Assembly: GCF_023913775.1 (NCBI RefSeq)
Contig: NZ_JAMXAX010000005.1
Coordinates: forward strand, 1-64,000
Source of the DNA: Acidovorax facilis
GTDB taxonomy: Bacteria > Pseudomonadota > Gammaproteobacteria > Burkholderiales > Burkholderiaceae_C
Length of the DNA stretch: 64,000 nt
Direction of reading: 5' to 3'
The notes beneath the pieces were generated by a model. That model ran no database searches and was not told the origin of the DNA. It saw only the letters and a program-made list of their open reading frames with translations. Made by a program: the position numbers and the translations under genes. Of the stretch, positions 1 to 13,299 are shown piece by piece; the first letter of the stretch is position 1, and the number at the start of each line of letters is the position of its first letter.

Positions 1-437
1 ATCTCGGATACCGCCAGCGCACCGAGCACCGGGGAGGCATAGGTGGCGAGCGTGTTGGTCCATTGTTCGGCATGCTTGGCGTTCTTCCAGCCCGCACGGT
101 GGCTGGCGATGTAGCGCGCAGCCGCCGTGTCGAACACCAGCACGTCTGCCCGGCTCTGGCGCGCCTGGGCGGCGTGTTTGATGTCCAGGGGGTCCTTGCC
201 ATCGGCCAACAGGCGCCTTTGCGCCAAGGCGCGTTCGCGCGCGTCGGCCAGACCGAAGGTGACCAGACTGCCAAGGCCCATCTCGCGTTCGCGCCCGGCA
301 AAGCGGTAGCGAAAGATCCAGCTCTTGGCACCGCTGGGCTTGACGCAGAGGTACAGACCTGCGCCGTCGGCGTGGTAGCCGGGCTGTTTGAGACGCTGCA
401 CTTTCAGTGCGGTGAGTCGATTGATGCCTAGACCCAT
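1..437 (-). CDS. Tyrosine site-specific integrase, N-terminal part
   Basis: The reverse strand encodes 145 residues from an ATG at 437 to the window edge, so the catalytic domain is outside. The start (MGLGINRLTALKVQ) and the following stretch with GLYLCV, SWIFRY and an REMGLG strand match the arm-binding (DUF4102) domain of P4-type integrases. The core-binding domain begins near residue 105. Such enzymes insert genomic islands at a short attachment core, usually next to the integrase 5' end. That 5' end lies only 157 bp from the broken 3' end of jetC. The family assignment is firm; target and activity cannot be judged from this fragment. Confidence 0.88.
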   Translation of the reverse strand, partial: MGLGINRLTALKVQRLKQPGYHADGAGLYLCVKPSGAKSWIFRYRFAGREREMGLGSLVTFGLADARERALAQRRLLADGKDPLDIKHAAQARQSRADVLVFDTAAARYIASHRAGWKNAKHAEQWTNTLATYASPVLGALAVSE

Positions 438-476
438 GGTGGAGCAACGTCAATAGATAGTTGCCTTAACTTTCAT

Positions 477-626
477 CTGCGGGGGACTGGCAATATTGTC
501 CCACGAGCTGTCCCCCGCAGTAAGTCCAAATTGACTGAAATTTCTTGAAATGACGTGGGACGGATAGAATCCTAAATATCTGTTTTTAAACAACTATTTA
601 GAAACGAACTGGGATGTTGTGGGACG
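477..626. repeat. Short repeats between integrase and jetC, possible integrase-binding or att region
   Basis: An 11-bp perfect inverted repeat (CTGCGGGGGAC at 477-487, its complement at 510-520) encloses GTCCCACG at 498-505. The same heptamer recurs inverted as CGTGGGAC at 554-561 and GTGGGACG at 619-626, the last inside the jetC tail. Spaced short repeats beside an integrase promoter are what arm-type binding sites look like. Function is inferred; the repeats themselves are read directly. Confidence 0.5.
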
Positions 627-3488
627 TTGAGTTAGGCGGACTCCGGCATCTCCAAACAGACTGCCGTCGGCGCCGAAGTCGGCGATGTTCTCGATGAACT
701 TCTTCAGTGGCATGAGGTCTGGGCGCACCTTGGCCTGGAACTGGTACCGCTCCCCATTGGTGAAGGCGGGGGAGGCTTTTAGCGCAGCATTCAAGCGCTT
801 GAAGGTCGTGGTCTGGTACTTGAGGTTGGCGTGGAGGGCCAATGCCACGTCCTGGCGGAAGGTGTTCTGCGAGGCAAGGTAAGCTTCCTGCGCCTGGGCC
901 TTGTACTGGGGTAGCTCCGTGTTCTGCAGCCTGCTGACTTGCTGCTCCATCCATTCCTTGGCTTTGCGCCAGTCGGACGTCACCTCATCGCTGATAGCTT
1001 CGCGGTGCTCCGTGAGGAAGGTCCCAAGCAGCGTTTGGGCCGGGCCCAGATGCCGCGTCATGGCGGTGTTACAGCGTCTGGACTGGGTTTCGCACTGGTT
1101 GGCCATGGCTTGGTAGTCGTCGCCATATTGCTCCAGCAGCGCGTCCCAGCGATCGGAAGCATATTCCGGGTCATAGTCGGCATGGCTGCGGCAGGTTTCG
1201 TGCACCGTGTGCTTGCCCTGGAGCTCCTGCAGCTTGGCTGCGCATTCCCTGGTCAATCTCTCCAGTTCTGTCTCGGCCCGCACAACGGCATCACGGGCTT
1301 TGCGGGAATCTGTGTCCAGCTGAGGCTTGCGCGCCTGCAGTTCCCGTAGTTTGGCGGACAGGGCCTGGTACTCGGCACTGGTGCTTCCAGCGATACGTTT
1401 CTCTGCGAGTTCTCTCTCGGTGAGCGCTTCGCCCAGCTGGCGGGCAGATCCAAGTAGGAGGCGCAGGGTCTCAGGGGACGACAAGCTTTGCACCGCCAGG
1501 CGGATCCGATCAATGTCGCCCTGGCGCCCTTGAAGGTCAGCAACCTGTTGGTTCAGTTTGCGGGATTCGGCCCTGAGTCCGTCGACCTGGCCTTTGGCGC
1601 CGGCGCCGATCTGCAGGTCCGCCTCTGGCACCAGGCGTAGCCGCTCAAAGTCTCCGGGCCCCACCAGCATGCCGTCCAGGGTCAGGGTTCGCTCGCCCCG
1701 CAGCGCCTCTTGGGCGGAATTCGCGCGTTTGAGGTTGCCCAGCTTGCCACGTAGGTAGGCCACGGCCACCTGGTTGCTGCCCTGTATCAGGCTGGCCGCC
1801 GTGTCGGCGGCCGGCTGGCCCTGCCCAGGCCGGGCTCGGTCGGAGCGCACGATCTTGACGCCGTAGATACTGCGTTTGCCCTGCAAGGACTGGTAGATGC
1901 CAAAGGCTCTTTCCTCCTCCTGCGAGTCCCGCAGCAGAATGGCCTCCACGTTCTTGGCCAGATAAGCTTCGATCGCTGGCTGCCATTTGGGATCGGTCAC
2001 CTTCACCAGGTCACAGACGGGGGTGGGGTGCAATCCGTGGTCCGCGAACTCATGCATCAGTAAAGCCGTCGGGGTACTGACCTGCGCGCGGTTGGTATTG
2101 GCGCGCTCCATGCCCAGGCCGATGGTATTGAGACGCTCTTTGGCGATCCGTAGCTGCTCCTTGATGACGTCGTGCTCCTCAGTCAGGTGTGCACCAGCGG
2201 CCTTTAGCGTTTCTCCAAGGTCCCGGATGATCTGGCCCAGCGCATCCTGGTCGACTTGGTTCTGCTCCCATGAGAACGCACCAAGCTGCTGTGCGGCCTG
2301 CGCAAGCGCGGGTTGCCACTGGGCCAGCAAGTCGTTGGAACTGGCGTTTTGGAGCAGCTGTCGGAAGCTACGCAGTTCCGCCTTCAGCTCTTGTTCCTGG
2401 CGGGCGGTTTTTATCTGCGCCTGCGCCAGATCCTGCTGAGCGCCCGCGTTCTCGGCATGGTCCGCATGGGCTTGCTGCAGGCCTGACAGTTGAGCCACTT
2501 CGCGGGTCCAGGCCTCCAGCACCTGATCGGCTTTAGTGCTGGCCTTGGTGCACTCTTCGAACACGCCCTCTTGGTCAAACTTTTGCCCCGTCAGCATTTC
2601 GTGGGCCGCGTTGCTGAGCTCGTACGCCGCGGAGGCCTGTAGTCCCGTCCACGTGGCGGATTTGCGCGCCTCGGCCAGTGCAGCTTCAAAGTTCTTACTG
2701 ACCTCCTGGCCTTGCTTGATTTTGATCTCGACGCCCTCGACCAATAGGTTGATCCGCTTGAAGGTCTCCACCAGCTGCTTGAATCGGGCGATATTGGTGG
2801 GGCGGTCCTCCAGCACATCATTGCGAACAATCTGATCCACCGACTTGGAGAAGCTCATGCGCAGTGCGAAGCGGAAGGCGCGCGCAAACGCGTCGTAGGA
2901 CGCAGGGCCCGCCTTGCCACGCAGCATAAACAGCACTTGCTTGACGTAGCTGGCGCCATCGTCAAACAGCGGTTCTTCACCAGTGACCTTGGATTGCTCC
3001 AGCAACCGATGGCGGAAACTGCTCCAGGGCAGGGGCATGGTGGCACCGTCCACCGTCTGCAGGTGCTCTGACATGCTGAGCTCTACGCCGCGAATGACAT
3101 AGCGGCCCAACACCTTCTCCGCCTCGTTGCTCAGCGAAGCCTCAATGCACACACCCATGGAGACCGGCTCATTGGTCTCGGTGTCCCGCCAGACCAGTGT
3201 GATGTAAGTGGTGGCCTGCGGCCGCGCGCACTGTTCAATGGTGTCTCCGTACTGGCCAAGGCAATAAGAACGCAGGGTGCGGCTTTGCTGGTGCGATTTG
3301 TTGTCGGCCTGTGCATTGAAGTGCATCTGATTCTTGTTGGCGCCCATCATGGCGATCTGCACCGCATCGAGCGCTGAGCTCTTGCCGCTGCCGTTGCGGC
3401 CAAATAGACCAGTGATTTCTTCCAGACGGAATTCCTGCTGCTCGTACAACAGGAACTGCACCAGTTTGACGCTCTCAAGCCGTTTCAT
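594..3488 (-). CDS. jetC: Wadjet SMC-like ATPase JetC, 3'-truncated
   Basis: This encodes a 964-residue SbcC/MukB-like ATPase. Wadjet JetC (MksB type) is the motor that extrudes plasmid DNA so that JetD can cut it. Walker A (GRNGSGKS) is at residues 30-37, followed by the long coiled-coil arms and a second globular region near 880-949. Family members normally continue with the C-terminal head carrying the ABC signature and Walker B. Here the sequence stops about 15 residues after GSLFGDAG, with a tail (VRLTQRPTTS...) that does not resemble the family. I infer truncation near position 642 by the adjacent integrase element. The start overlaps jetB by 14 bp, showing operon coupling. Probably non-functional unless its partner half is used elsewhere. 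Confidence 0.82.
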   Translation of the reverse strand: MKRLESVKLVQFLLYEQQEFRLEEITGLFGRNGSGKSSALDAVQIAMMGANKNQMHFNAQADNKSHQQSRTLRSYCLGQYGDTIEQCARPQATTYITLVWRDTETNEPVSMGVCIEASLSNEAEKVLGRYVIRGVELSMSEHLQTVDGATMPLPWSSFRHRLLEQSKVTGEEPLFDDGASYVKQVLFMLRGKAGPASYDAFARAFRFALRMSFSKSVDQIVRNDVLEDRPTNIARFKQLVETFKRINLLVEGVEIKIKQGQEVSKNFEAALAEARKSATWTGLQASAAYELSNAAHEMLTGQKFDQEGVFEECTKASTKADQVLEAWTREVAQLSGLQQAHADHAENAGAQQDLAQAQIKTARQEQELKAELRSFRQLLQNASSNDLLAQWQPALAQAAQQLGAFSWEQNQVDQDALGQIIRDLGETLKAAGAHLTEEHDVIKEQLRIAKERLNTIGLGMERANTNRAQVSTPTALLMHEFADHGLHPTPVCDLVKVTDPKWQPAIEAYLAKNVEAILLRDSQEEERAFGIYQSLQGKRSIYGVKIVRSDRARPGQGQPAADTAASLIQGSNQVAVAYLRGKLGNLKRANSAQEALRGERTLTLDGMLVGPGDFERLRLVPEADLQIGAGAKGQVDGLRAESRKLNQQVADLQGRQGDIDRIRLAVQSLSSPETLRLLLGSARQLGEALTERELAEKRIAGSTSAEYQALSAKLRELQARKPQLDTDSRKARDAVVRAETELERLTRECAAKLQELQGKHTVHETCRSHADYDPEYASDRWDALLEQYGDDYQAMANQCETQSRRCNTAMTRHLGPAQTLLGTFLTEHREAISDEVTSDWRKAKEWMEQQVSRLQNTELPQYKAQAQEAYLASQNTFRQDVALALHANLKYQTTTFKRLNAALKASPAFTNGERYQFQAKVRPDLMPLKKFIENIADFGADGSLFGDAGVRLTQRPTTSQFVSK

Positions 3489-4167
3489 TGTTCATTCCCT
3501 GGTTGTCTTCGATCGCCACTGGCTCGCCAGCTGCCCCCTCCACATGCGCCTCATCCTTGGCTACTCCCCACTGCGCCAGCCGAATCAAGGCCGTCTCACC
3601 CAGCACGTCGACGATGGCCGGGCGGATGGCCACACCGCCGGCTGACTGCTCCTGCAGGGGCGTCAGGTGGCCGCTGTCATCGTCTTCCAGACGCCGGGCG
3701 ATGCCCCAACGCTTGGCAGATCGCAGCAGGGTGTCGAGCTCGCCGCGGGTGGGCAGGTCACGCCCGGTCATAAGGTGGAACTTCTCTTGCAGCTCGATGT
3801 AGTCGCACAGGACCTCGCCGTCTTCGGTAAGTCCGCCGGCGCGCACGCCTTCGTCGTACAAGCCGCGCAGCACCAAGGCAAACAGTGTCTGAGCCACGGT
3901 CGCGGTACCGGCCTTGGCGTGCCGCGGGAGGGCGGTGACATAGCGCAGCTGCCGGTTGATCGACAGTGACACACCCAGCGGCGCCAGCACTTTGGAGAAC
4001 TCGCGCTCGTAGAGGTCCAGGATTCCATACGTCACCCGGCTGCTGCGGTCGGAGTGGTAGATCACCTGCTCAGCCACCAGTCGGTAGGCGGCGGTCTCGA
4101 AGTCTTCGACGGTATAGACACCATCTAGCCTGCTGGCCAGATCTTCCCAGTCCCGTGGGTTGCTCAT
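3475..4167 (-). CDS. jetB: Wadjet subunit JetB (DUF4194, MksE-like)
   Basis: This 230-residue protein matches the small winged-helix DUF4194 subunit of the Wadjet complex, which binds the kleisin JetA and bridges it to the SMC dimer. Typical segments are AYRLVAEQVIYHSD near the N-terminus, HFLMTGRDLPTR-type sequence at mid-protein (here FHLMTGRDLPTR) and a C-terminal LIRLAQWG region. The start overlaps the jetA stop (ATGA) and its end overlaps jetC by 14 bp, so the three genes are translationally coupled. The acidic C-terminal tail of about 25 residues is probably flexible. The gene seems intact. Confidence 0.85.
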   Translation of the reverse strand: MSNPRDWEDLASRLDGVYTVEDFETAAYRLVAEQVIYHSDRSSRVTYGILDLYEREFSKVLAPLGVSLSINRQLRYVTALPRHAKAGTATVAQTLFALVLRGLYDEGVRAGGLTEDGEVLCDYIELQEKFHLMTGRDLPTRGELDTLLRSAKRWGIARRLEDDDSGHLTPLQEQSAGGVAIRPAIVDVLGETALIRLAQWGVAKDEAHVEGAAGEPVAIEDNQGMNNETA

Positions 4168-5630
4168 TTGGTCTCCCTGTTCTTGGCCTGGCGCTTACGC
4201 CAACTCAGTGTGAATGGCTTGCCGCTCAAGTACGGGTGCTCGGCGGCTTCGTCGCTGGTGTAGCGAAGCTCCATGCCTGGGGCCGATGCCCGGCCTTCCA
4301 TCTCCAGCCTGGGGATCCGCGAGTTGGTGGCCATGGCCACGCTGGTCAAGACCTGAAAGGCTCGCAAGTCCTCAATGGACCCGCAAGGCAGGGCGTCGCT
4401 GCCGGCAGCGGCCGTTTCCTGCAGCACTTTTTCAGCATAGGCGCGCAGTTTCATGGGCGTGATGGATCGGCGCTCCTGGGCGCGGCGCACCAGGTTGCCG
4501 ATCGCGCGCGTGCGGTCGGAGATGATCACTTGGCGCAAAGGTGTGGGCGCCAGCCGCGGCACCTCCTTGCGTGGCTGGGCCAGACGGGCACCGCCCATCA
4601 GGGCATCCGGCGGGAACACGGGGGCGACATCGATGTCGGGATTGGCAATTAACCGGTCCATGGTCTGCCGCAGCAGGTTGTCGATGGGGCGGATCGCGCG
4701 CAGCTTGTATTCCAGGAAGGCCAGCGCGCGCCGGTTGGCGACCCGGATCTCTTCGTCCAGTCGCTCCAGGTACTCCTCGATCCGGTCCAGCTCGTACAGG
4801 CGCTGTAGGTCCCGCTGGAATGCGGCCTGGCCCTTCTTGTCATCCCCACTGGAGAGTCGGTTCACATACCAGTCCAGCAAGCGGCTGCGCTGCTCGGGCT
4901 GCGTGTCGATTTCGGTGACGGCGTCCAGGATCTGCTGGCGCTTGGACAAGGGGTGCTCCCGGGTACGCAGTTCCTGGTAGTCCCCAATGAAGACCTCCTG
5001 GACGTAGGAGGTGAAGAAGGACCGCACGTATTGGGCGGTGGTGGGCTCGGCGCCGATGGCGGCCATCAGGTCGCGCACATTGGTGCTGGTGTTGCGGATG
5101 TAGACCAATAGGTTGCGGCATTGCTCGGCCGCCTCGCGCAGCAGGTCGCCACTGGCTTCGCCCTTGTGCACCTGGGCCACGGCAGCATCTATCGCGCGGA
5201 TCTTGCCGGAAACGAACACCGGGCCCGTCTCCGCAAAGTTGATCAGCTGGGTCAGCAACTGGCCCACGGCCGGCGCCATGTTGACGGTCTTCTCAATGCC
5301 GTACCTCTCCAAGCGGAACCATCCTGCATCGACCAGGCGATTGAAGATGCCAATGGCCCGGATGTTCAGTGGCGTGTCGGGCTGATCGCCAGACTCGGGC
5401 TGCCATTCGTCTGCGTATTTGAGGTGGTCCTCGATTTCCTGGATGACATCGCGCTGCAGGAAACCGTAGCCGGGCGGCAGTGGCGCGTCGGGGCCGAAAC
5501 GCCGGCGGTGCAGGTGGCACAGAAGTGCCCAGTAGCCGTGGCGGTTTTGCGAGGCTAGGGGCCCGAAGAGGCGCTCCGGGATGCGCTGGAACAGCGCCAT
5601 GGAGGCGGGGGTTACGCTGGGAACAGCCAT
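4164..5630 (-). CDS. jetA: Wadjet subunit JetA (kleisin, MksF-like)
   Basis: This 488-residue protein resembles the JetA family. It has the N-terminal block MALFQRIPERLFGPLASQNR from residue 11, typical of JetA starts, then a mainly helical middle region and a long helix rich in Arg and Glu around 270-320. JetA acts as the kleisin that closes the SMC ring and recruits JetB. The ORF starts at 5630, overlapping the regulator gene upstream by 19 bp; an internal ATG at 5600 would start exactly at the conserved block and is equally possible. No break is seen in the frame. Confidence 0.83.
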   Translation of the reverse strand: MAVPSVTPASMALFQRIPERLFGPLASQNRHGYWALLCHLHRRRFGPDAPLPPGYGFLQRDVIQEIEDHLKYADEWQPESGDQPDTPLNIRAIGIFNRLVDAGWFRLERYGIEKTVNMAPAVGQLLTQLINFAETGPVFVSGKIRAIDAAVAQVHKGEASGDLLREAAEQCRNLLVYIRNTSTNVRDLMAAIGAEPTTAQYVRSFFTSYVQEVFIGDYQELRTREHPLSKRQQILDAVTEIDTQPEQRSRLLDWYVNRLSSGDDKKGQAAFQRDLQRLYELDRIEEYLERLDEEIRVANRRALAFLEYKLRAIRPIDNLLRQTMDRLIANPDIDVAPVFPPDALMGGARLAQPRKEVPRLAPTPLRQVIISDRTRAIGNLVRRAQERRSITPMKLRAYAEKVLQETAAAGSDALPCGSIEDLRAFQVLTSVAMATNSRIPRLEMEGRASAPGMELRYTSDEAAEHPYLSGKPFTLSWRKRQAKNRETK

Positions 5631-6469
5631 TTGCGCACCTCCGCGACGTTCTCCACCGCCAGTTGGTACTCAGGCGGCAATTCCTTGGCCACATCCAGGG
5701 CCAGCCGCAGTTCCTGGACCAGGTAGGGCAACAGGGCGCCGCGGCAGCTGTGCACGCGCGCCGCAGTCCCCTCGAAATACTCGCTGCGGACCAGGTCCTG
5801 CTGGCCAGGTGTCAGCTTGGGGTGCGCCTGGATGCGCACCTTCACCACAGCGTTCCACTTTGTGTCTTCTGCGACTGTGGATTCGGCCTTTTGGTCCAGC
5901 ATGGAAAGCTTCGCGATACGCCCCAGCACGAAGTCCCGGAAGTCACCGGTCTCCAGGCAGTAGCCACGCATGTGCCAGCGCCGGCCGGCCTGCACCAGGC
6001 TGTGCGGCTCTACGGTACGCGAGTGTGGCTCGGGTGTACGCATGGACCGGTAGTCCAGGCTCAGGCGCGTGCCCTGCTCGATTGCCAGGCGGATGCGGGA
6101 GAAGGTATTGGGGTTGACCTGGGAGAAGCCCCACGGAGCAACGGTGACGGGTCCAGCACCTGGGGCGAGGTCAGCATGGATGTCCGCTTCTGCAAGGTAG
6201 GCAGCCAGGGTGAGGTCTGATGTGCCAGCCTTGAGATCGGCCTGGGCCTTCTTGTAGGCACCAGGGGTGACAAAGTAGGATTTGCTTCTACTGTCCCACT
6301 CAAACCAGTCAGGGGTTTCTTCTCGAACTTCTCGAAGAAGCTGACTCACTCGAATGCCGCTCAGTCCGAGGATGTCCATGAGTCGACCTCGGCTCAGCCG
6401 CCCTTCCCATAGAGCCATGCGACGCATGACCTTGTAGCGGTTTTTCTCGAAAAGATTGGCTAGGCTCAT
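5612..6469 (-). CDS. WYL-domain transcriptional regulator, BrxR/CapW-like
   Basis: The 285-residue product has an N-terminal winged helix (residues about 10-80) and a WYL domain. The segment RWHMRGYCLETGDFRDFVLGRI, shown here as RWHMRGYC plus FRDFVLGRI, is the hallmark of the BrxR/CapW regulators that repress BREX, CBASS and other defence operons and are thought to release DNA on sensing a ligand. It is the first gene of the jet operon and overlaps jetA. A strong palindrome just upstream (6482-6520) fits autoregulation. Role as a defence-operon repressor is inferred from family and position. Confidence 0.8.
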   Translation of the reverse strand: MSLANLFEKNRYKVMRRMALWEGRLSRGRLMDILGLSGIRVSQLLREVREETPDWFEWDSRSKSYFVTPGAYKKAQADLKAGTSDLTLAAYLAEADIHADLAPGAGPVTVAPWGFSQVNPNTFSRIRLAIEQGTRLSLDYRSMRTPEPHSRTVEPHSLVQAGRRWHMRGYCLETGDFRDFVLGRIAKLSMLDQKAESTVAEDTKWNAVVKVRIQAHPKLTPGQQDLVRSEYFEGTAARVHSCRGALLPYLVQELRLALDVAKELPPEYQLAVENVAEVRKWLFPA

Positions 6470-6481
6470 CAGGTTGGTTTC

Positions 6482-6520
6482 ATGGTGTATAAATATATAT
6501 CATGTAGAAATATATACCAT
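6482..6520. promoter_or_regulatory. Palindromic operator and promoter of the WYL-jet operon
   Basis: ATGGTGTATA at 6482-6491 and TATATACCAT at 6511-6520 form an inverted repeat matching at 9 of 10 positions around an AT-rich centre. It starts 12 bp upstream of the regulator ATG. BrxR/CapW proteins bind inverted repeats of about this arm length, so autoregulation is likely; this is inference. Confidence 0.6.
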
Positions 6521-6957
6521 CTAAAGATGGTGCGCTACCGGGATGGCTTCCGCCACTCGCTCCGGGTAGAAGGGATACTTTTCGACGCGTGGCCAGGCTG
6601 GTCTATGTTGAGTGGACACCGAGGATGTGCTGCAGCCGTCAACCCTGTCATCCTCGAAAGACAGGTGAACGAGGCGGTTGATGCTCAGGGCCGTAAGGTC
6701 ACCGGGGGCACGCAGCCCGGACTCAACTTCGCAGTGATTGCAGTCCTTCATCCGCCACTGAATCGCCGGTCGATTCACCACCGAACTCACGCTGTCAATT
6801 GAACACCAGTCGTCAGCTTGTTTTTCCCTGCACGGATGGCCGATGCACATGGCCCAAGAGCAACACCCAGAGGCCCTGTACTAACCATTGCTGAACACGT
6901 TCAGTTGATGGTTTGCGCGGCCGTAATCGTGTTGAGACGGTGCGTGCATTGAACAAC
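6521..6957. other. Gene-free stretch between the jet operon and the AbiE-like pair
   Basis: Open frames of 106 and 109 codons exist on opposite strands here. Neither has a Shine-Dalgarno sequence, recognisable motifs or a good codon pattern. I see no RNA gene. It may be a degraded remnant of island DNA. Confidence 0.4.
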
Positions 6958-7770
6958 CTACGATCGCAACATGCGCTCGAAGGCGTAGCTGCACGTTGCC
7001 TGGATTTGTTCAGGGGGTAGGTCGCGATCAGCAGGAATACGTGCGGCGTCGCGGACCATGTCGTTGACTTCAGCGAATGTCTGCGTGCTGATCTTTCGCA
7101 CGTCATCGGCCAGACCACCAAGCGCCGGTGCAACTCGCGCCTTCCAGTGCACATTGAATTCGTCCAACAGCGCACCGAAGAGTTCGATCGTGTCGTAGAT
7201 GTACAGCACGTCCTGGGCTCGTTTGTTCGCCGGTCGATATTGCTGAATCAGGAACTTCTGGACCATGAAGCACAAGGGGTGGGCTACCTGGACATCAATT
7301 CGCTCCGGCAGCGGAACGCCCTCTTGCTGTCCCAGACTGATGATCCAGGGATCGACCAGAAGGACGTCCAGGTGGCGGATCTTCTGAGCCGAGATCCCAG
7401 CCTTCGTCATGGTTGCATCCGCTTCTCCGCTTCGTTTGCGGCCGCTTCCCGCCAAAGGTGTCAGGAACTCGGCATAGAAGCCGCCGGCCTCGTCGCCAAG
7501 CGTGTAGTGGGCCGCCGGTGGTCGATGGTCGCCGCTCAACTCTTCCTGGAAGCCATGCTGCAGAAGCGATTGCTTGATGTCTCCCTCAATGGGCTCCTTG
7601 TTTGCAAAGGCGAGGTCTGTGTCACGAGTGAAAACAGGCTGATAGTCAGGTCGGTTGGCCCTTGGATCCAGTCGATGGAGACGATGGCCCCAACCGCCGA
7701 TGAAGATCAGCTGCTGGCGCCAAGCTGCCAGGGCTTGAACCAGTTTCGCGAAAGCTTCTAGATCGTTCAT
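6958..7770 (-). CDS. Nucleotidyltransferase-like toxin (AbiEii-like)
   Basis: This 270-residue protein carries a nucleotidyltransferase signature: GGW at 25-27 followed by TRDTDLAF with candidate metal-binding Asp50 and Asp52. It lies 5 bp downstream of an AbiEi-like gene in the same operon. In type IV AbiE systems the AbiEii partner is a nucleotidyltransferase that blocks growth by modifying tRNA, and AbiEi represses the operon. The GGWGHR to TRDTD spacing contains about 20 residues, somewhat longer than usual. Toxin function is inferred from pairing; an uncharacterised housekeeping nucleotidyltransferase is less likely in this island. Confidence 0.65.
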   Translation of the reverse strand: MNDLEAFAKLVQALAAWRQQLIFIGGWGHRLHRLDPRANRPDYQPVFTRDTDLAFANKEPIEGDIKQSLLQHGFQEELSGDHRPPAAHYTLGDEAGGFYAEFLTPLAGSGRKRSGEADATMTKAGISAQKIRHLDVLLVDPWIISLGQQEGVPLPERIDVQVAHPLCFMVQKFLIQQYRPANKRAQDVLYIYDTIELFGALLDEFNVHWKARVAPALGGLADDVRKISTQTFAEVNDMVRDAARIPADRDLPPEQIQATCSYAFERMLRS

Positions 7771-7775
7771 CAGAC

Positions 7776-8912
7776 TCAGTTACCGACGAGTGGCAGGAGG
7801 TATTTCTTGTAGATCAGATCAGCTTGTTCAGATCCCCTTGTTGGGTGGTTCATCACGTCCAACCATACTTGGAGGATGTCCGTGACCAGGATTCCGTCGT
7901 GATTGACGGCTCCCCTGAATGTGGATTGTGGAAAAGATGCCTGCCGCAAGATCAAGTCTGGTCGATCAGATGGATACGCCATCAACCCTGGCCAGTCCGA
8001 TGCCCCCACTTTGGGCAGCTTGGGAACATAGATATACGGAGGCACACCGCTGACGTGCCCGATGCCCAGCTCATTGGCAGCGGAAAAAAGTCCCAGACAA
8101 GCGTTTTTGGAATGGTGGCTTAGCAAGCCTCGAATTTGCTGAGCAGCAGGGGCTCGTAGAAGAAAGCGGCATGGCATCTCCGGACACGCGCGCATCGCGG
8201 CGGCGCCCCAACGGCGGAAAAGCTCTTCGCGACGAACGAGCTTCAGATGAGGCGATGAGTCGCTCAGATATCCTTCGTTGCGCAGTTGCTGCAGGAATCG
8301 GGAAGCGCTCATGGCGGACACCTGCGCAGCTTCGGCCAGGTCGGAGCCGTTCTTGAACTGCCTTTTGGGGGCGTTCAACAAGCCGTTCGGCAATTCCCAC
8401 GCCAGGAGGAGTTTCAGCATCCACTGGTTGAGGTCCGAGAACAGGTTGATGGCTTGCGATGGGCGGCGGGCTGAGAGGCGGCTTGGCTCCTCTGGCAATC
8501 GGTTCAGCTGCTGGAATACCTCATCACTGAAATATTGTTCGCCGCGTCCCGAGATTATTCCGACAGACACATCTTTCGCGAACTTCTGCGCAAACACTTC
8601 CACATGCTTAGCCAAAGACAGAGATGCTTCCGGCACGAAGATGATTGCGAGGGGAAGAGCATTGCCGGACTGCTCGGCTGCAGCTTTGGCTTGGAGAATC
8701 GCCATAGAGAGAACCGGCAGCACGCGGTCTGGGCGACCTTCGGATAGTGCCTTGATTTCGACGATGAATCGGTGCTTTCCGTGCCGAATGAGCAAGTCGG
8801 CGCTGAGCGAGTCTTCATGCTGCATCTCCACAGACCAACCGTTGGACTGGAAGAAATTGGCAACGTACTGCTCGGCATGCACGTGCTTGTTGGGGGAAAG
8901 AGGTGCTCGCAT
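7776..8912 (-). CDS. AbiEi-like antitoxin/regulator with N-terminal nuclease-like domain
   Basis: The 378-residue product has three parts. Residues 10-130 look like a PD-(D/E)XK fold: E14, then D39 and E52-I-K54 (DLLIRHGKHRFIVEIKA). A winged helix follows near 185-225 (AEAAQVSAMSASRFLQQLRNEGYL). The C-terminus has the VTDILQVWLDV...GSEQADLIYKKYL block of AbiEi-type proteins. The start at 8912 follows almost directly on operator repeats with no clear Shine-Dalgarno, so it may be leaderless. As antitoxin it would repress the pair and neutralise the downstream nucleotidyltransferase. Whether the nuclease-like domain cuts DNA is unknown. Confidence 0.62.
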   Translation of the reverse strand: MRAPLSPNKHVHAEQYVANFFQSNGWSVEMQHEDSLSADLLIRHGKHRFIVEIKALSEGRPDRVLPVLSMAILQAKAAAEQSGNALPLAIIFVPEASLSLAKHVEVFAQKFAKDVSVGIISGRGEQYFSDEVFQQLNRLPEEPSRLSARRPSQAINLFSDLNQWMLKLLLAWELPNGLLNAPKRQFKNGSDLAEAAQVSAMSASRFLQQLRNEGYLSDSSPHLKLVRREELFRRWGAAAMRACPEMPCRFLLRAPAAQQIRGLLSHHSKNACLGLFSAANELGIGHVSGVPPYIYVPKLPKVGASDWPGLMAYPSDRPDLILRQASFPQSTFRGAVNHDGILVTDILQVWLDVMNHPTRGSEQADLIYKKYLLPLVGN

Positions 8913-8923
8913 ATGGTGGGTTT

Positions 8924-8975
8924 TAACATGGCCATTTTATTTAACATGTCCATGTTGTCAACCGTGGCCATGTTA
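8924..8975. promoter_or_regulatory. Palindromic operator array upstream of the AbiE-like pair
   Basis: TAACATGGCCA at 8924-8934 and TGGCCATGTTA at 8965-8975 are perfect inverted repeats of 11 bp. Between them AACATGTCCATGTT at 8943-8956 is itself palindromic with a 2-bp centre. The arrangement lies immediately upstream of the start codon, as expected for negative autoregulation by an AbiEi-type winged-helix protein. Confidence 0.65.
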
Positions 8976-9093
8976 TTCATCAGCTAATTGTGCTGATCAG
9001 CTCATCGGGGCTGGTTTTCTCGTCAGCGCAAAAAATGGACCGGGCAGTTCGCTGATCATTTTTGACCAAGCATGGCTTGGGCACCATCGAGTG

Positions 9094-9333
9094 ATGAGCA
9101 TCAACCGGCACTATGAGATGCAAGGTATCCAGCGAACGCACTTCAATAGCACTGTGCAGAAGGTCGGCTATGCCTCGACCGCCGAGCCGATCATCGAAGA
9201 AATCCTTGCCCGGACTGCGGCCATCGCCGAAGTGCAAGCCGAATTGCCACAGGACTTCTCACCGCGTGTTCTTGACGCCATCCTGGGCGGGCTTGAGCAG
9301 GCGGCACGAACACTCGGTTGGATGCCGCCGTAA
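9094..9333 (+). pseudogene. hipA 3' remnant
   Basis: The 79 codons from 9094 read MSINRHYEMQGIQRTHF, then EPIIEEILARTAAIAEV, ending in LDAILGGLEQAARTL. This matches the extreme C-terminus of HipA-type serine/threonine kinases (INRHFEIQGI..R.HF and the ILARTPAVI.EV block). The kinase core is missing and no hipB is nearby. The frame remains open upstream but the sequence there is not HipA-like. The fragment is best read as a scar of a lost HipBA module. Confidence 0.7.
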
Positions 9334-9580
9334 GCGGTAGAAGAGTGGGGCATGTCCGAGTGCGCTTGGATGTCGTGTCTCAATCGGTTGTGCATCCGAA
9401 CGGGTGTGGGAGGCTGGAGTTGCTCCGCTTCGGGATCACGGAGAAATCCAACCGGATGAACAGCCATAGGAGTATTTGCCCTGGTGCGCTGGGCTGCGCT
9501 TGAATGGATGGAATGTGTCGGATGTCCCTGGCACTCTACGGAGTCGGCGACGGGTGTCGCAGGATCGGAAAGGGAGCCAT

Positions 9581-9919
9581 ATGAGACCAGCCGCACAGAA
9601 TCGCACGGAGCGCGGGAGTCAACGGGAGGCTGTCGATAGAGAAATCACCGACCGCGCTGCCCAGTTGATGAGGCAGGCGTTGTCGCTGCTGGAGAATGGT
9701 GAGCCGATACGAAGGCTGCCTTTGGAAGATGGAGGCGACGAAGACCGCCTGTTGCGGTTGCCAGAGGTGCTGCGCTTGACGGGGATGTGCCGCTCGGCCC
9801 TTTACGACCAAATGGCGCGAGGGCAGTTTCCGGGGTCTATCAAGATCGGGGAGCGTGCGACCTCATGGTCAGCCAAGGCAGTACGAAACTGGATAGCGCA
9901 GCGTGTGGATGGTTTGTAG
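9581..9919 (+). CDS. AlpA-type phage/island regulatory protein
   Basis: A 112-residue protein starting at ATG 9581 behind the ribosome-binding sequence AAAGGGA. The C-terminal half (RLPEVLRLTGMCRSALYDQMARG, here LPEVLRLTGMCRSALY, then FPGSIKIGERATSW and AVRNWIAQR) is the MerR-like helix-turn-helix of the AlpA family. Such proteins activate integrase expression or act as excisionases for P4-like elements. The N-terminal 60 residues are an atypical charged extension. An in-frame earlier start at 9476 is possible but has no ribosome-binding site. It lies near the right border of the island. Confidence 0.85.
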   Translation: MRPAAQNRTERGSQREAVDREITDRAAQLMRQALSLLENGEPIRRLPLEDGGDEDRLLRLPEVLRLTGMCRSALYDQMARGQFPGSIKIGERATSWSAKAVRNWIAQRVDGL

Positions 9920-10042
9920 CCGATGGGGCAATGTAGAGCTCGCTGACGATGTGGTGAAGGCGTCTTGGGCTGCCCAAATTGATTGGTCATGAGGCCGCCT
10001 CTATCGAAAACTTTTCACGCGGCAGCTTATGGAGAACAAGGT

Positions 10043-10064
10043 GGGGGAACAAACGGGGGAACAA
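10043..10064 (+). repeat. Direct repeat GGGGGAACAA, candidate integrase arm sites (type A, left)
   Basis: Two copies of GGGGGAACAA lie at 10043-10052 and 10055-10064, spaced 12 bp. A third inverted copy is at 10561-10570. Regular short repeats flanking hairpins fit arm-type integrase sites left by an integrated element; this is inference. Confidence 0.5.
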
Positions 10065-10146
10065 GTCAAAAAATAAAAAAGTGAAATCCAGCATCTATGC
10101 GGGTTTCCAGATTTCATTCAATTGACGCCAGCCCATAACCCCATCC

Positions 10147-10182
10147 AAGGGCGTCCACACTAATCCAGTGGACGCCCTTTTT
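10147..10182 (+). terminator. Hairpin with T-tract (copy 1 of duplicated unit)
   Basis: GGGCGTCCAC (10149-10158) pairs perfectly with GTGGACGCCC (10168-10177) around a 9-base loop and is followed by five T. It can terminate alpA transcripts. It shares flanks (CCATAAC, TCCAAGGG, CCTTTTTC, TTGGT) with the hairpin at 10411-10445, so the unit may be a duplicated attachment site. Confidence 0.7.
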
Positions 10183-10250
10183 CTTTGGTGAATCAACGAC
10201 TTAACGTCCGTGGCCGTCCAGAGTCGGCCATGCCCAGCCAGGGTAAAGTG

Positions 10251-10388
10251 GGGGGTACAAATGGGGGTACAACCAGATAAATCTGGTGAAATCGGTGTTT
10301 TGTACCCCCACTTCCCTCTGTAGAAGGAGGTCGCCATAGGGGAATCTGTACCCCCACCGCTTACCTTCATCCACTGTTTTGTACCCCC
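10251..10388. repeat. Five copies of GGGGGTACA, candidate integrase arm sites (type B)
   Basis: Direct copies at 10251-10260 and 10263-10272 are followed by inverted copies at 10300-10309, 10347-10355 and 10379-10388. The direct pair has the same 12-bp spacing as the type A pair. All lie between the two hairpins. Such clusters are typical of attachment regions of P4-type integrases; no coding sequence is visible. Confidence 0.55.
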
Positions 10389-10410
10389 ATGCGCCACCAC
10401 CATAACGTCC

Positions 10411-10445
10411 AAGGGTGTTCGCTGACTTCCAGCGAACACCTTTTT
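10411..10445 (+). terminator. Hairpin with T-tract (copy 2 of duplicated unit)
   Basis: GGTGTTCGCTG (10414-10424) pairs perfectly with CAGCGAACACC (10430-10440) around a 5-base loop, followed by five T. The stem sequence differs from copy 1 but the flanks are alike, so the structure rather than the sequence is conserved. Confidence 0.65.
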
Positions 10446-10513
10446 CATTGGTAAAACAGGTACTTATGGTGCATGGACATGCGCTGTAATTTGCTGGTGG
10501 CCACAGCTAAACC

Positions 10514-10570
10514 GGGGAACGGATGGGGAAAAAACCTGAAAAGTCACCGACTGCGCCCAGTTGTTCCCCC
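10514..10570. repeat. GGGGAAC repeats, candidate integrase arm sites (type A, right)
   Basis: GGGGAAC at 10514-10520, a degenerate GGGGAAA at about 10525-10531 and the inverted TTGTTCCCCC at 10561-10570 repeat the motif seen at 10043-10064, on the other side of the type B cluster. This nesting suggests one element inserted inside the site of another. Confidence 0.4.
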
Positions 10571-10758
10571 GTTTCCTTCGGGGGCTATTGCATCCATGCA
10601 TTCCAAGACTCTTTCCAGAAACTGTTGCACCGAAAGATTCTTGTTTGCTTCCTCGGGGTTGGTGTGCTGACCGTCGATGCCCTGGGAAATATTGGCAATT
10701 GGGTGCGATAGATTGGTCGGCAGGTGCTGTTTGCCTGCGGCGAGAGCCGCGAGGTTCG

Positions 10759-10785
10759 AAAAAAATAACCCGCACGAGGCGGGCT
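10759..10785 (-). terminator. Rho-independent terminator on the reverse strand with no gene behind it
   Basis: Read on the reverse strand, AGCCCGC and GCGGGTT flank a CTCGT loop and are followed by seven T after one A. No convincing reverse-strand gene lies to the right, so the gene it served seems to have been lost or replaced. Confidence 0.6.
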
Positions 10786-10789
10786 AAAT

Positions 10790-11265
10790 CATTGCATCAC
10801 TCGCACAGGGGAGGGGCGAACCGCCAGATTTGACGGTAGGTGCATCCTAAGTCCGGTTCCGATTGGTGTGCGATGGGCCGGTCAGTAAATCGTGAAATAT
10901 GTCCGGTTTACACGGGCCTCCGACGTGTCAGCAGGGTTTGAAGGTTTTAGCGCGACGAACAAAACTCCCCTGGCGGCCGCCCGTCTTGTTGTACGGCTTG
11001 TTCTGCCAGCGAAGGAACGCCTAGCCCGGGCCGCTGCGCTAGGTTTTGTTCGCCGCTCTTGGCTGCAGTGCCGCTTGTTCCATACATCGCAATCGCAGCG
11101 TTGTGAAGATGGGTTTGGGGTCTACGGACCGTATCTCCAAGCGGCGTGGGTTGTCATTGGACGACGCAGCCTGACTAGATCGCGAGGTTGTAGCTTCGTG
11201 TATCAATTCTTGAGCCTCAGGGGCGCACGCCGCACAATGCACGCTCGTTCACGCCGGAGGCCACC
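10790..11265. other. Gene-free stretch with a long inverted repeat
   Basis: No supported gene. GCGACGAACAAAAC at 10952-10965 and GTTTTGTTCGCCGC at 11043-11056 are inverted repeats matching at 13 of 14 positions. Inside is a smaller hairpin (CCTAGC and GCTAGG). The 105-bp structure could be a folded recombination site or a relic of a mobile element. It lacks the GTTRRRY and RYYYAAC boxes of integron attC sites. Confidence 0.45.
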
Positions 11266-11526
11266 ATGCCAATGGAGTACTTGAGGGCGCTGGAGCGCGA
11301 CGCGCTTCCCCTGATTGAATCGGATGTCTTCAACATCGACAAACTGCGCATCCTGCGCGCGGCTGGAATGGTGGAGGTGCAGCTTCCGCCCGTCGATTCA
11401 CCCCATCAGAAAGCCCAGGTGCTGTATGTCACTGGCCTAGGTTGTGCGACCCTGCGAGCCTGTGGAGCCAGCGTCAAGACACACCACCGGGAATCGCATT
11501 GCGATCTGGAGTCTTCCTACGACTGA
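11266..11526 (+). CDS. Small uncharacterised protein
   Basis: An 86-residue frame starts at ATG 11266 with GGAGG ten bases upstream. The product (MEYLRALERDALPLIESD, then DKLRILRAAGMVEVQLPP) is acidic, has no signal peptide and no membrane segment. The segment IDKLRILRAAGMV followed by VTGLGCATLRAC loosely resembles a small winged-helix unit, but I do not recognise the family. It is the first of four small same-strand genes. The ribosome-binding site and codon pattern favour a real gene; a second ATG lies two codons downstream. Confidence 0.6.
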   Translation: MPMEYLRALERDALPLIESDVFNIDKLRILRAAGMVEVQLPPVDSPHQKAQVLYVTGLGCATLRACGASVKTHHRESHCDLESSYD

Positions 11527-11675
11527 GGGGCCTGGTGTGGGGATTCCCGGCAAAACTCCAGGCACCGGGAGAAATCGTCCTACAGAGTGTTGCGCTGCAC
11601 CAGAAGTGCCATAGTCGCAGGCCAAAAATACGATGAAGCATCTGTATTGCTGGCACGGCCAGACGAAAGGTGCAT

Positions 11676-11987
11676 ATGAGCAGTTGGTACAAATTGGCGC
11701 TTGGCAACGACGATGAGGCCTTTGAGCCTGCCTTGCGAATCCAGCAGATGTTCATGTCGAAGTTCTTGATGTGCCCTCCAGGTTCTGGCAGGGCACTTTT
11801 TTCTTGCTACGACAAGGCGAACGACAACCTCTGGCTGTACTTTTCCCCGGCAGCGCAGGACATCGCATTGCGTGTGTATGCACAGCCGTGTGATTCCCCG
11901 ACAGCACTGGATTGCATTGGTCTGCTGGCCGGTGAAGGCGATGCGCTCGGCATGGGGGAGTCTCCTTTGCTGAAAAAGGCGGCGTAG
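11676..11987 (+). CDS. Small uncharacterised protein
   Basis: A 103-residue frame begins at ATG 11676, six bases after GAAAGG. An in-frame GTG at 11670 is an alternative. The product (MSSWYKLALGNDDEAFEPALRIQQMFMS...) has no signal peptide. It contains NDNLWLYFSPAAQDIALR, a hydrophobic core suggesting a globular fold. I do not recognise the family. Position among small same-strand genes and the natural amino-acid composition support it as a real gene. Confidence 0.55.
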   Translation: MSSWYKLALGNDDEAFEPALRIQQMFMSKFLMCPPGSGRALFSCYDKANDNLWLYFSPAAQDIALRVYAQPCDSPTALDCIGLLAGEGDALGMGESPLLKKAA

Positions 11988-12152
11988 TCCTCTTCCGGAC
12001 AAGGGCACTTGCAAACCTGGCCCCTTGGTTTTACGCACTTGGCGTGTATGCGCTGTCCCACATTCATGTTCTTTGGGCTCTGACATGCGCTCGTGCACGG
12101 GCATGTGCCAATCTTTTTACCGGCCGTTATCGGACTGGCCTGAGGAGTAAAA

Positions 12153-12356
12153 ATGTTGTCCTACGATCCCACGCTTTCTCACCACCTGGAAGCTTGCCCG
12201 GAAGCTCCCTTTCTGCAGATGGGCCAGCCCGCAGACAGGCTCTTGCAACGCCAGCAAACCGACAACCTGCCTCTGGGCCGCAGCGATAGTCACGGCCTGG
12301 AGCGGGAGTTGCAGTTTGCCGATCTGGACTGTCAAGAGCCGCAGGCGATGGGCTGA
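12153..12356 (+). CDS. Possible small protein
   Basis: A 67-residue frame starts at ATG 12153, six bases after the strong ribosome-binding sequence GAGGAG. The product is rich in Gln, Leu and Asp (residues 20-60 repeat LQ and DL pairs) and has no recognisable domain. It ends 40 bp before the next gene. The ribosome-binding site is the main evidence; it could also be a leader region of the following gene. Confidence 0.4.
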   Translation: MLSYDPTLSHHLEACPEAPFLQMGQPADRLLQRQQTDNLPLGRSDSHGLERELQFADLDCQEPQAMG

Positions 12357-12396
12357 TGACTTTTCGCCTGCAAATGGGTGGTTGCGGAGCAAAGCG

Positions 12397-12672
12397 ATGT
12401 CGGTGCTGACACTGCACATCCGCCCGGAAGGTGCCCAGCAGTATCTGGCAAGGGTGTTCGACGGAAAAATTCTGGTCGGTGTTCCGACCTTGCACCCCGG
12501 CATCAAGGAGGCGATAGAGGCGTATGGCTTGGGCCAAGGCTTCGCGGGGGTGATTGCCTTCCATATCTGGTATGGCGGCTGGAGCGTCGGCACCATACCA
12601 CTCGACCGGATGCAGACTGAGGCTGCCGAGTTGGCAAATCGCCTTGTTGTGCTTTCCGCCGTGGTCCGTTAA
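12397..12672 (+). CDS. Small uncharacterised protein
   Basis: This 91-residue product starts at ATG 12397 behind GGAG. It reads MSVLTLHIRPEGAQQYLARVF, split as MSVLTLHIRPEGA and QQYLARVFDGKILVG, with alternating hydrophobic strands and a glycine-rich FHIWYGGWSVG segment. No signal peptide or membrane helix. The family is unknown to me. The frame is well preserved and composition is protein-like; earlier in-frame starts at 12316 lack a ribosome-binding site. Confidence 0.6.
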   Translation: MSVLTLHIRPEGAQQYLARVFDGKILVGVPTLHPGIKEAIEAYGLGQGFAGVIAFHIWYGGWSVGTIPLDRMQTEAAELANRLVVLSAVVR

Positions 12673-12729
12673 GTGCACTCGTAGCTATGTTGCAGGCCGC
12701 AGGCTGGTGGGTGGACTGGCAGGGTGGGT

Positions 12730-12754
12730 GAAACAAAATGAAATAAACCGAAAC
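12730..12754 (+). promoter_or_regulatory. Three 10-bp-spaced GAAAY repeats, candidate response-regulator site
   Basis: GAAAC, GAAAT and GAAAC start at 12730, 12740 and 12750, exactly one helical turn apart, 80-100 bp upstream of the Spy-like gene. OmpR-family regulators bind direct repeats of this spacing, and such a regulator is encoded in the same operon, so autoregulation is likely. Confidence 0.5.
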
Positions 12755-12831
12755 TGCGTCGAGACCCCATTGGCGGGGTCTGTCGGCACCATCAGGGTCA
12801 TGTTCAACACCGTCCATGAAAGGACTGCACC

Positions 12832-13299
12832 ATGAAACCCTGGATCAAGAAAACCCTGATGGGCATCTTCGGCGCCTCCATTGCCGTGGGCGGCTTGACG
12901 GCATGCTCCAGCAGCCACCATCACCGCGGCCCGATGAGCCCCGAGAAGATGACCGAGGTGCGTGGCAAAGTGGTGGAGCGCGTCAGTAGCAAGCTGGACC
13001 TGAACGAGGCGCAAAAGCTCAAGCTCAATGTGCTGGCCGACAAGATGGAAGCCCAGCGCGCAGCTTTCATCGGCAAGACTGCGGACCCGCGCACCGAAAT
13101 GCAGGCGATTGTGGCGGGCGCCAAGTTTGACCGCGCGCGGGCGCAGACCTTGCTGGATGAGAAAACCCGCGCGGTGCAGGCCAACAGCCCCGAAGTCATC
13201 AGCGCACTGGCCGATTTCTACGACAGCCTGAACCCCGACCAGCAGCAGAAAGTGCGCGAGATGATGCAGAGGCGCAAGGGCTGGATGGCGCGCGGCTGA
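12832..13299 (+). CDS. Spy/CpxP-like periplasmic lipoprotein
   Basis: This 155-residue protein has a lipoprotein signal with Cys25 (GGLTAC) and then a His-rich SSSHHHR start to the mature chain. Two LTxxQ-like motifs of the Spy/CpxP family appear as LNEAQ and LNPDQ in an all-helical protein. Such proteins are periplasmic chaperones or sensors that inhibit a CpxA-type kinase in unstressed cells. It is the first gene of an operon with a paralogue, a response regulator and a kinase. The His cluster may bind metal. The role is inferred from family and context. Confidence 0.82.
   Translation: MKPWIKKTLMGIFGASIAVGGLTACSSSHHHRGPMSPEKMTEVRGKVVERVSSKLDLNEAQKLKLNVLADKMEAQRAAFIGKTADPRTEMQAIVAGAKFDRARAQTLLDEKTRAVQANSPEVISALADFYDSLNPDQQQKVREMMQRRKGWMARG

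Follow-up and report, generated by a model that had tools for sequence, protein, structure and literature searches.

The DNA around positions 10043–10570 of the window (the whole stretch that was analysed, 64,000 nucleotides of the Acidovorax facilis contig NZ_JAMXAX010000005.1) very probably represents the distal end of a tandem island array at ssrA that has since decayed. The islands would have carried P4-type integrases of one clade, and each left end would have brought arm sites together with a terminator of its own, replacing the displaced host terminator. In the proposed arrangement, the right (P) end of an island would bear a pair of arm sites, and the left (P′) end would bear a pair followed by mostly inverted copies reaching the ATG of the integrase gene. 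Each left end would also hold a terminator whose position hardly varies, with the att core on one side and an IHF-like site on the other. Insertion into the 3′ end of ssrA or of a tRNA gene would push the host terminator to the far side of the island; the island terminator would then take over, ending the tmRNA or tRNA transcript and shielding int from that promoter. Judged from the sequence, the hairpins would terminate transcription in vivo and insulate int, the arm sites would be bound by the integrase and the site 55 bases after the CCA would be bound by IHF.

Repeats, hairpins and order of the elements in the window

The motif GGGGGWACA was found eight times in the 64-kb window when both strands were counted, and every copy lay within the 528 bp from 10043 to 10570. 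Type A (GGGGGAACA) was present at 10043–10051 and 10055–10063, with an inverted copy at 10562–10570; type B (GGGGGTACA) was present at 10251–10259 and 10263–10271, with inverted copies at 10301–10309, 10347–10355 and 10380–10388. The first two copies were spaced by 12 bp in type A and type B alike. Both hairpins, H1 (stem 10147–10158/10168–10179) and H2 (stem 10411–10424/10430–10443), had the flanks CCATAAC, TCCAAGGG and TTGGT in common. Their folding z-scores were -5.5 and -6.0, respectively, and none of 200 dinucleotide shuffles was equally stable. Its GC-rich stem, with a T tract behind it in the orientation of the upstream RNA gene, makes the hairpin a predicted intrinsic terminator. A simple terminator scan (loops of 3–8; T counted after the longest stem) did not return H1 or H2, and did pick up their homologue at ssrA of the own genome. 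An Rfam search of 9900–11300 gave three matches, each under the gathering score. The features are collected in Table 1; for the IHF sites, the consensus was taken to be WATCAANNNNTTR.

Table 1. Features at the putative array end and at the contig edge (positions in the window)
Feature	Position	Strand	Basis or remark
Truncated P4-type integrase at contig edge	1..437	-	PF13356 + PF22022
AlpA-family small regulator	9581..9919	+	PF05930, E 5e-15
Type A arm pair (GGGGGAACA twice, 12 bp apart), putative right-end (P) arm of left island	10043..10063	+	83 bp from pair to core
Putative attR half-core TTCATTCAATTGACGCCAGCCCA	10113..10135	+	Similar stretches at other right ends
H1, predicted intrinsic terminator with T-rich tail, in putative element 2 left end	10147..10189	+	Folding; family covariation
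IHF-consensus site AATCAACGACTTA, between terminator and arms	10191..10203	+	Same place in 36/71 homologues
Putative type B P′ arm: pair 10251–10271 and three inverted sites	10251..10388	.	Hairpin-to-arm spacing as in homologues
ATG adjoining last type B site	10389..10391	+	Counterpart in G085 C23 starts a P4-type integrase
CGCCACCACCA, putative core remnant separating elements 2 and 3	10392..10402	+	Homologues compared by eye
H2, predicted intrinsic terminator with T-rich tail, in putative element 3 left end	10411..10452	+	Folding
Degenerate IHF-like site AAACAGGTACTTA, two mismatches	10454..10466	+	Consensus comparison
Putative degenerate type A P′ arm, integrase lost	10514..10570	.	GGGGAAC 10514–10520; GGGGAAAA 10525–10532; inverted TGTTCCCCC 10562–10570

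Read in tandem, the array appears to consist of the right end of island 1, after which come two left ends, first that of element 2 and then that of element 3. The first type A pair is read as a right end because its distance to the half-core compares with 81–84 bp at the right ends of seven other islands. The half-core itself is a degenerate copy of a tmRNA or tRNA 3′ end, its left half being non-tmRNA; when the last 60 bases of the genome's own ssrA were compared with window 1–13000 in a short-word search, 16 nt at 10117–10132 matched with 87.5% identity, amid many chance matches. Element 2 would comprise H1 and the type B arms, and element 3 would comprise H2 and the degenerate type A arms, both left ends lacking an integrase. 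The H1/type B unit retained its ATG and then passed directly into the core of the next unit, no integrase match being found downstream of this ATG at E 1e-4. In element 3, the step from GGGGAAC to GGGGAAAA was 11 bp, and the arm weakly matched the arm region of an ssrA island in genome G018 (72%, E 0.006). Homologues of 10455–10770, sought in the own genome and eight others, amounted to nothing beyond weak matches outside the window. For 10575–10757, the eight other genomes held no convincing homologue (the best, for 10585–10757, had E 0.17), and the final attR of the array was unrecognisable within this interval.

The initial annotation had described the repeats and hairpins correctly, all eight motifs of the window and both hairpins being present, and its view that elements had stacked at one site agrees with the scars of several elements seen here, one right end and two left ends. 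It had further placed type A outside and type B inside as nested sites. The motif positions are as it gave them, and the nesting was dropped, since the left type A pair is assigned to the right end of one island and the right-hand type A site to the separate left-end unit of another.

The sequences GGGGGAACA and GGGGGTACA are probably lineage-specific arm sites of integrases of one clade. The truncated integrase at the contig edge, which the initial annotation had proposed to compare with the arm motifs, is probably the owner of neither the type A nor the type B sites: it reads away from the type A sites, and its flanking motif differs (GGGGGAC, by eye). Inverted GGGGGAC motifs at about 478–524 (by eye) lie beside this leftward integrase remnant, and window 1–524 appears to be the end of another element lineage. 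The left island seems to carry as cargo Wadjet-type JetC, JetB and JetA with a WYL-domain protein (window 597–6469, minus strand). At window 6961–8912 (minus strand), a nucleotidyltransferase (NTP_transf_8) stands beside a 378-aa protein, possibly as a toxin–antitoxin-like pair. From its family and place, the AlpA-family protein is a candidate recombination directionality factor of the island ending at about 10135, directionality factor being the role that we take this family to have.

Left ends in related genomes and proposed attachment to ssrA

Stretches related to 10030–10600 were found in 49 of 299 genomes of the family, the own genome included, and 18 homologous places were inspected. Nine of these were complete in their order. 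In them, the 3′ end of ssrA, or a copy of this end (..GCCAGCTCCACCA), was followed after about 11 bp by the hairpin; then came GGGGGAACA or GGGGGTACA as a pair spaced by 12 bp, more arm copies in inverted orientation and the start of an integrase beginning MLTD. The arm pair was degenerate in G099, and the further copies were direct instead of inverted in G292 and G225. In an intact left end, the 3′ end of ssrA or of a tRNA gene precedes the hairpin and an IHF-like site; the motif pair with its 12-bp spacing comes next, and more motifs lead up to the ATG of a P4-type integrase. The first arm lay at +114/115 after the CCA in 55 of 73 loci and at +124/125 in seven. Both full homologue integrases tested (n=2) contained the domains Arm-DNA-bind_3, Phage_int_M and Phage_integrase, and the 12 integrases aligned had 63–84% identity to the first homologue. 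Among the remaining inspected places, three had arms without an integrase (G085 C16 and G122 twice), four consisted of an RNA-gene end and the hairpin only (G169, G268, G295 and G003) and two were right ends bearing other hairpins (G130 and G274). The hairpins behind ssrA of G268 (locus L049) and G169 (L048) were of the island type, with neither arms nor an integrase of the clade within 3 kb, and are possibly terminators remaining from lost islands.

Another terminator-like hairpin stood right behind the CCA at ssrA of G085 and G187 (L072 and L070; GACACCGCCACAC..GTGTGGCGG in G085), followed by integrase-like sequence (by eye) on the opposite strand, perhaps of another island lineage. At G000 C199:35860 (L147), a pair of GGGGTACA lay beside another P4-type integrase domain match of the same genome, with a hairpin on its right.

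The type of arm was identical at the left and right ends of six islands. The 15.4-kb island of G280 had GGGGTACA at both ends (TAC/TAC), and those of G292, G225, G207, G130 and G099 had GGGGAACA at both ends (AAC/AAC), the ends of the G099 island being matched across the start of a one-contig record. Of 16 genomes searched, 15 contained the pair pattern, at 27 places in total, and the reversed control gave none. Two of the 27 places (G000 C372 and G085 C19) were set aside as coding-like and unlike island ends.

One composite recurred outside the window. At 930 kb of G085 C16, the arrangement of the window was found again, with H1 and type B arms behind a right end of type A and the integrase lost at the start codon. 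Such a recurrence would suit a live, integrase-less mini-island of 260 bp, formed by H1 and the type B arms and mobilised in trans, in place of a deletion scar. No right-end (P) pair stood before the next core, however, and the two copies are homologous and come from one genus, so that a single old deletion explains both; we regard such a mini-island as quite improbable. Behind the G085 composite (L034 9701–10420, minus strand) came a different element, and a hairpin of another kind was seen there.

The genome's own ssrA was located at C393:101088–101474. Behind it come the hairpin, then type A sites and an integrase whose frame is intact. Contig C393 stops 2.3 kb past ssrA and the window is the start of C371, with contig gaps in between; the left end at the own ssrA is likely to be the partner of the island right end in the window. 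In the one-contig genome G262 of the same genus, the match to window 12730 onward starts about 264 bp downstream of ssrA, which likely makes this genome an empty site. The corresponding distance is about 1.8 kb in G187, where the match covers window 11183 onward. The right flank is present in G085 as well, but lies there behind an apparent acyl-CoA ligase gene (by eye) instead of ssrA, and a rearrangement is therefore possible. The array of the window seems to fill the ssrA site, and we infer that this very array is attached to ssrA.

Pairing, position and direction of the hairpin

A covariance model (A1) was built from 15 units that had been picked by a perfect-stem finder, so that its pairing is biased; both sides changed in 8 of 13 pairs. 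H1 and H2 matched it with E 1.2e-13 and 1.1e-13, respectively, both being members of the model by construction. The model matched in 68 of 299 family genomes, and 61 places were examined, namely the first 62 of 94 listed, minus one partial match on the reverse strand. At 42 of the 61, a complete gene predicted by ARAGORN (26 tmRNA, 16 tRNA) ended exactly at the unit; as the model includes ACCA, the evidence lies in the complete genes and not in the CCA by itself. The initial annotation would count as refuted if hairpin units occurred widely with no integrase or island nearby, and in part this is the case: 36 of the 61 places had no integrase of the clade within 3 kb, and 25 had one (20 of the 42 adjacent to a gene and 5 of the 19 others).

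A second set was assembled from the integrase side, with the hairpin ignored in the choice, and comprised 80 loci from species genomes, the best 80 of at least 572 relatives. Within this best 80 of at least 572, a complete tmRNA or tRNA gene was found no more than 450 bp upstream in 64 loci; 52 of these 64 passed a strict terminator test and 12 failed it. Seven of nine loci bearing an att-like end alone, again among the best 80 of at least 572 relatives, also had a strict terminator. Shuffles keeping base composition only passed the test in 10 of 3650 cases, and positional controls passed in 4/64 for the last 110 bp before int and in 0/64 for the 110 bp before the tRNA gene. The hairpin lay about 11–45 bp beyond the CCA on the island side, and the stem started 11 bases after the CCA in 58 of the 59 passing loci and 16 bases after it in one.

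From the 80 loci, 71 units were aligned (set A3) after seven loci without a tRNA or att-like end (three of them with less than 500 bp upstream), L177 (where the tmRNA found was that of the upstream att) and L251 (att-like, without a unit) had been omitted. The 71 units, which come from the best 80 of at least 572 loci, aligned free of gaps; 767 of 781 pair cells formed, and 37 distinct 5′ stems were present. When the 3′ halves were re-dealt in the same register over 500 rounds, 664.9 of the 781 cells were paired on average, and never more than 682. Eleven of the 12 loci failing the strict test were among the aligned units, and each of these units paired in at least 9 of 11 positions. Conserved pairing with a freely changing stem sequence fits an RNA hairpin and not a DNA-binding site. 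The IHF consensus stood exactly 55 bases after the CCA in 36 of the 71 units, as against 15 of 7100 shuffles keeping base composition only; at this place it was present at H1 and, with two mismatches, at H2.

These results bear on the central claim of the initial annotation, that integrases recognise the terminator-like hairpin itself and that the insertion sites are intrinsic terminators. The hairpins of the window, with different stems and common flanks, do lie one at each att site, as such targeting would have it. The freedom of the stem (37 distinct stems in 71 units) speaks against it, as does the conserved sequence on the target side, which is the 3′ end of tmRNA or tRNA. After the attR core, a different terminator-like hairpin was found at five of seven right ends and none at the other two (G225 and G099), which indicates that the hairpin is not a shared integration target; the ssrA at the empty site of G262 likewise bears an unrelated hairpin. 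The integrases sit behind the tmRNA or tRNA 3′ end with the hairpin inside the island, and we consider recognition of the hairpin extremely unlikely.

Another explanation is that the hairpin is a folded DNA or RNA regulator of int, either an attenuator or a single-strand site resembling integron attC, and not, or not only, a terminator. The attC site, a hairpin-type recombination target, was used as a comparison, and this form of the explanation was dropped because the two ends of an island bear different hairpins, as seen at five of seven right ends. The nearly constant position between att core and int would suit a regulator, and for ICEKp1, ICEEc1 and ICEclc, stem-loops ahead of int have been proposed as attenuators of a tRNA–int transcript in the accessible part of one report (PMC13023037). 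Against this, the stem of about 12–14 bp with its T-rich tail followed the direction of the tmRNA or tRNA in the 52 of 64 loci, and in 0/64 on the opposite strand; attenuation and termination are, moreover, compatible with each other. A regulatory role, in place of termination or besides it, is unlikely in our judgement, and a replacement terminator is the preferred reading. A promoter between terminator and int was sought in one island, and none was found there.

The terminator was also sought across the phylum, where PF13356 was found in at least 123 of 160 genomes. Among the matches listed, 70 integrase places from 64 genomes were taken, 30 of them given (one from the own genome) and 40 chosen by hand outside the own family. 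A tRNA or tmRNA gene on the same strand lay no more than 600 bp away at 58 of these 70 places among the matches listed. In 39 of the 58, also among the matches listed, a terminator stem started no more than 60 bp after the tRNA or tmRNA, and 19 failed. The controls gave 4/2900 for shuffles (composition kept only), 6/58 for the opposite strand, 4/57 before int and 1/58 before the tRNA.

Comparison with known islands and implications

Going by its sequence, the array would belong, in decayed form, to a type of island array already described, and its one general feature would be the replacement terminator built into the island. Islander tDNA/tmRNA islands restore the gene, leave the displaced fragment at the far end and form tandem arrays (PMC4383910). 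They resemble the islands described here in their tyrosine integrases, in integration at the 3′ end of ssrA or tRNA genes and in one fragment per island in tandem; the accessible part of that text covers restoration of the gene and not of its terminator, the word 'terminator' occurring 0 times (PMC4383910). In Dehalococcoides, too, islands stand in tandem behind ssrA, and each carries a repeat of the 3′ end preceded by a non-ssrA motif. These islands use a serine recombinase, and neither 'terminator' nor 'hairpin' appears (0 times each) in the available portion of the article (PMC3146451). The clc-like islands of Bordetella petrii are similar in standing in tandem at tRNA-Gly; next to the tRNA end that is duplicated there, an inverted repeat was noted, which the part of the paper at hand does not term a terminator ('terminator' 0 times; PMC2717098).

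Regulation at the left end has its own parallels. In KplE1, arm sites lie beside the tRNA gene at attL/intS, overlapping the int promoter region, and int is regulated there (PMC2951348). The arm motif of KplE1 is another one, and 'terminator' was found in a reference title only in the portion of the paper available (PMC2951348). The attP of HE-PICI has a close direct pair of a short motif (tgTGTATTGCantgTGTATTGCa), as here, but motif and targets differ; the identity block of fis islands can reach the host terminator, according to the available portion of the study (PMC10111431), whereas the attL and attR hairpins differ here. The closest likeness is with ICEKp1 at tRNA-asn, where int lies directly behind the tRNA, the host terminator is displaced to the far end and, in the part of the report seen, stem-loops before int are proposed as a potential terminator (PMC13023037). 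ICEKp1 differs in that the tRNA promoter drives int (PMC13023037), which the strong covarying hairpin here, with its almost constant position, should largely block. A statement that islands bring a replacement terminator as a rule was not found in the accessible parts of the open-access literature, older subscription papers being outside this scope.

More broadly, selection may have made the replacement terminator an integral component of attP in the majority of P4-type islands, an idea that we hold tentatively. Integration displaces the terminator of a strongly transcribed gene, so that an island without one would expose int and cargo to the promoter of the RNA gene. Under such selection, islands would swap the terminators of essential RNA genes, decayed islands would leave theirs permanently and mobile elements would drive terminator turnover. 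The anatomy of the left end, which runs from the core through the terminator and the IHF-like site to the arm pair, the additional arms and the int ATG, lets integrase-less scars be recognised. The 2026 proposal of integrated ICEs using the tRNA promoter for int would also be bounded, as a terminator that should limit such use appears to be present in many P4-type islands, and whether islands must repair termination besides the RNA gene itself becomes testable.
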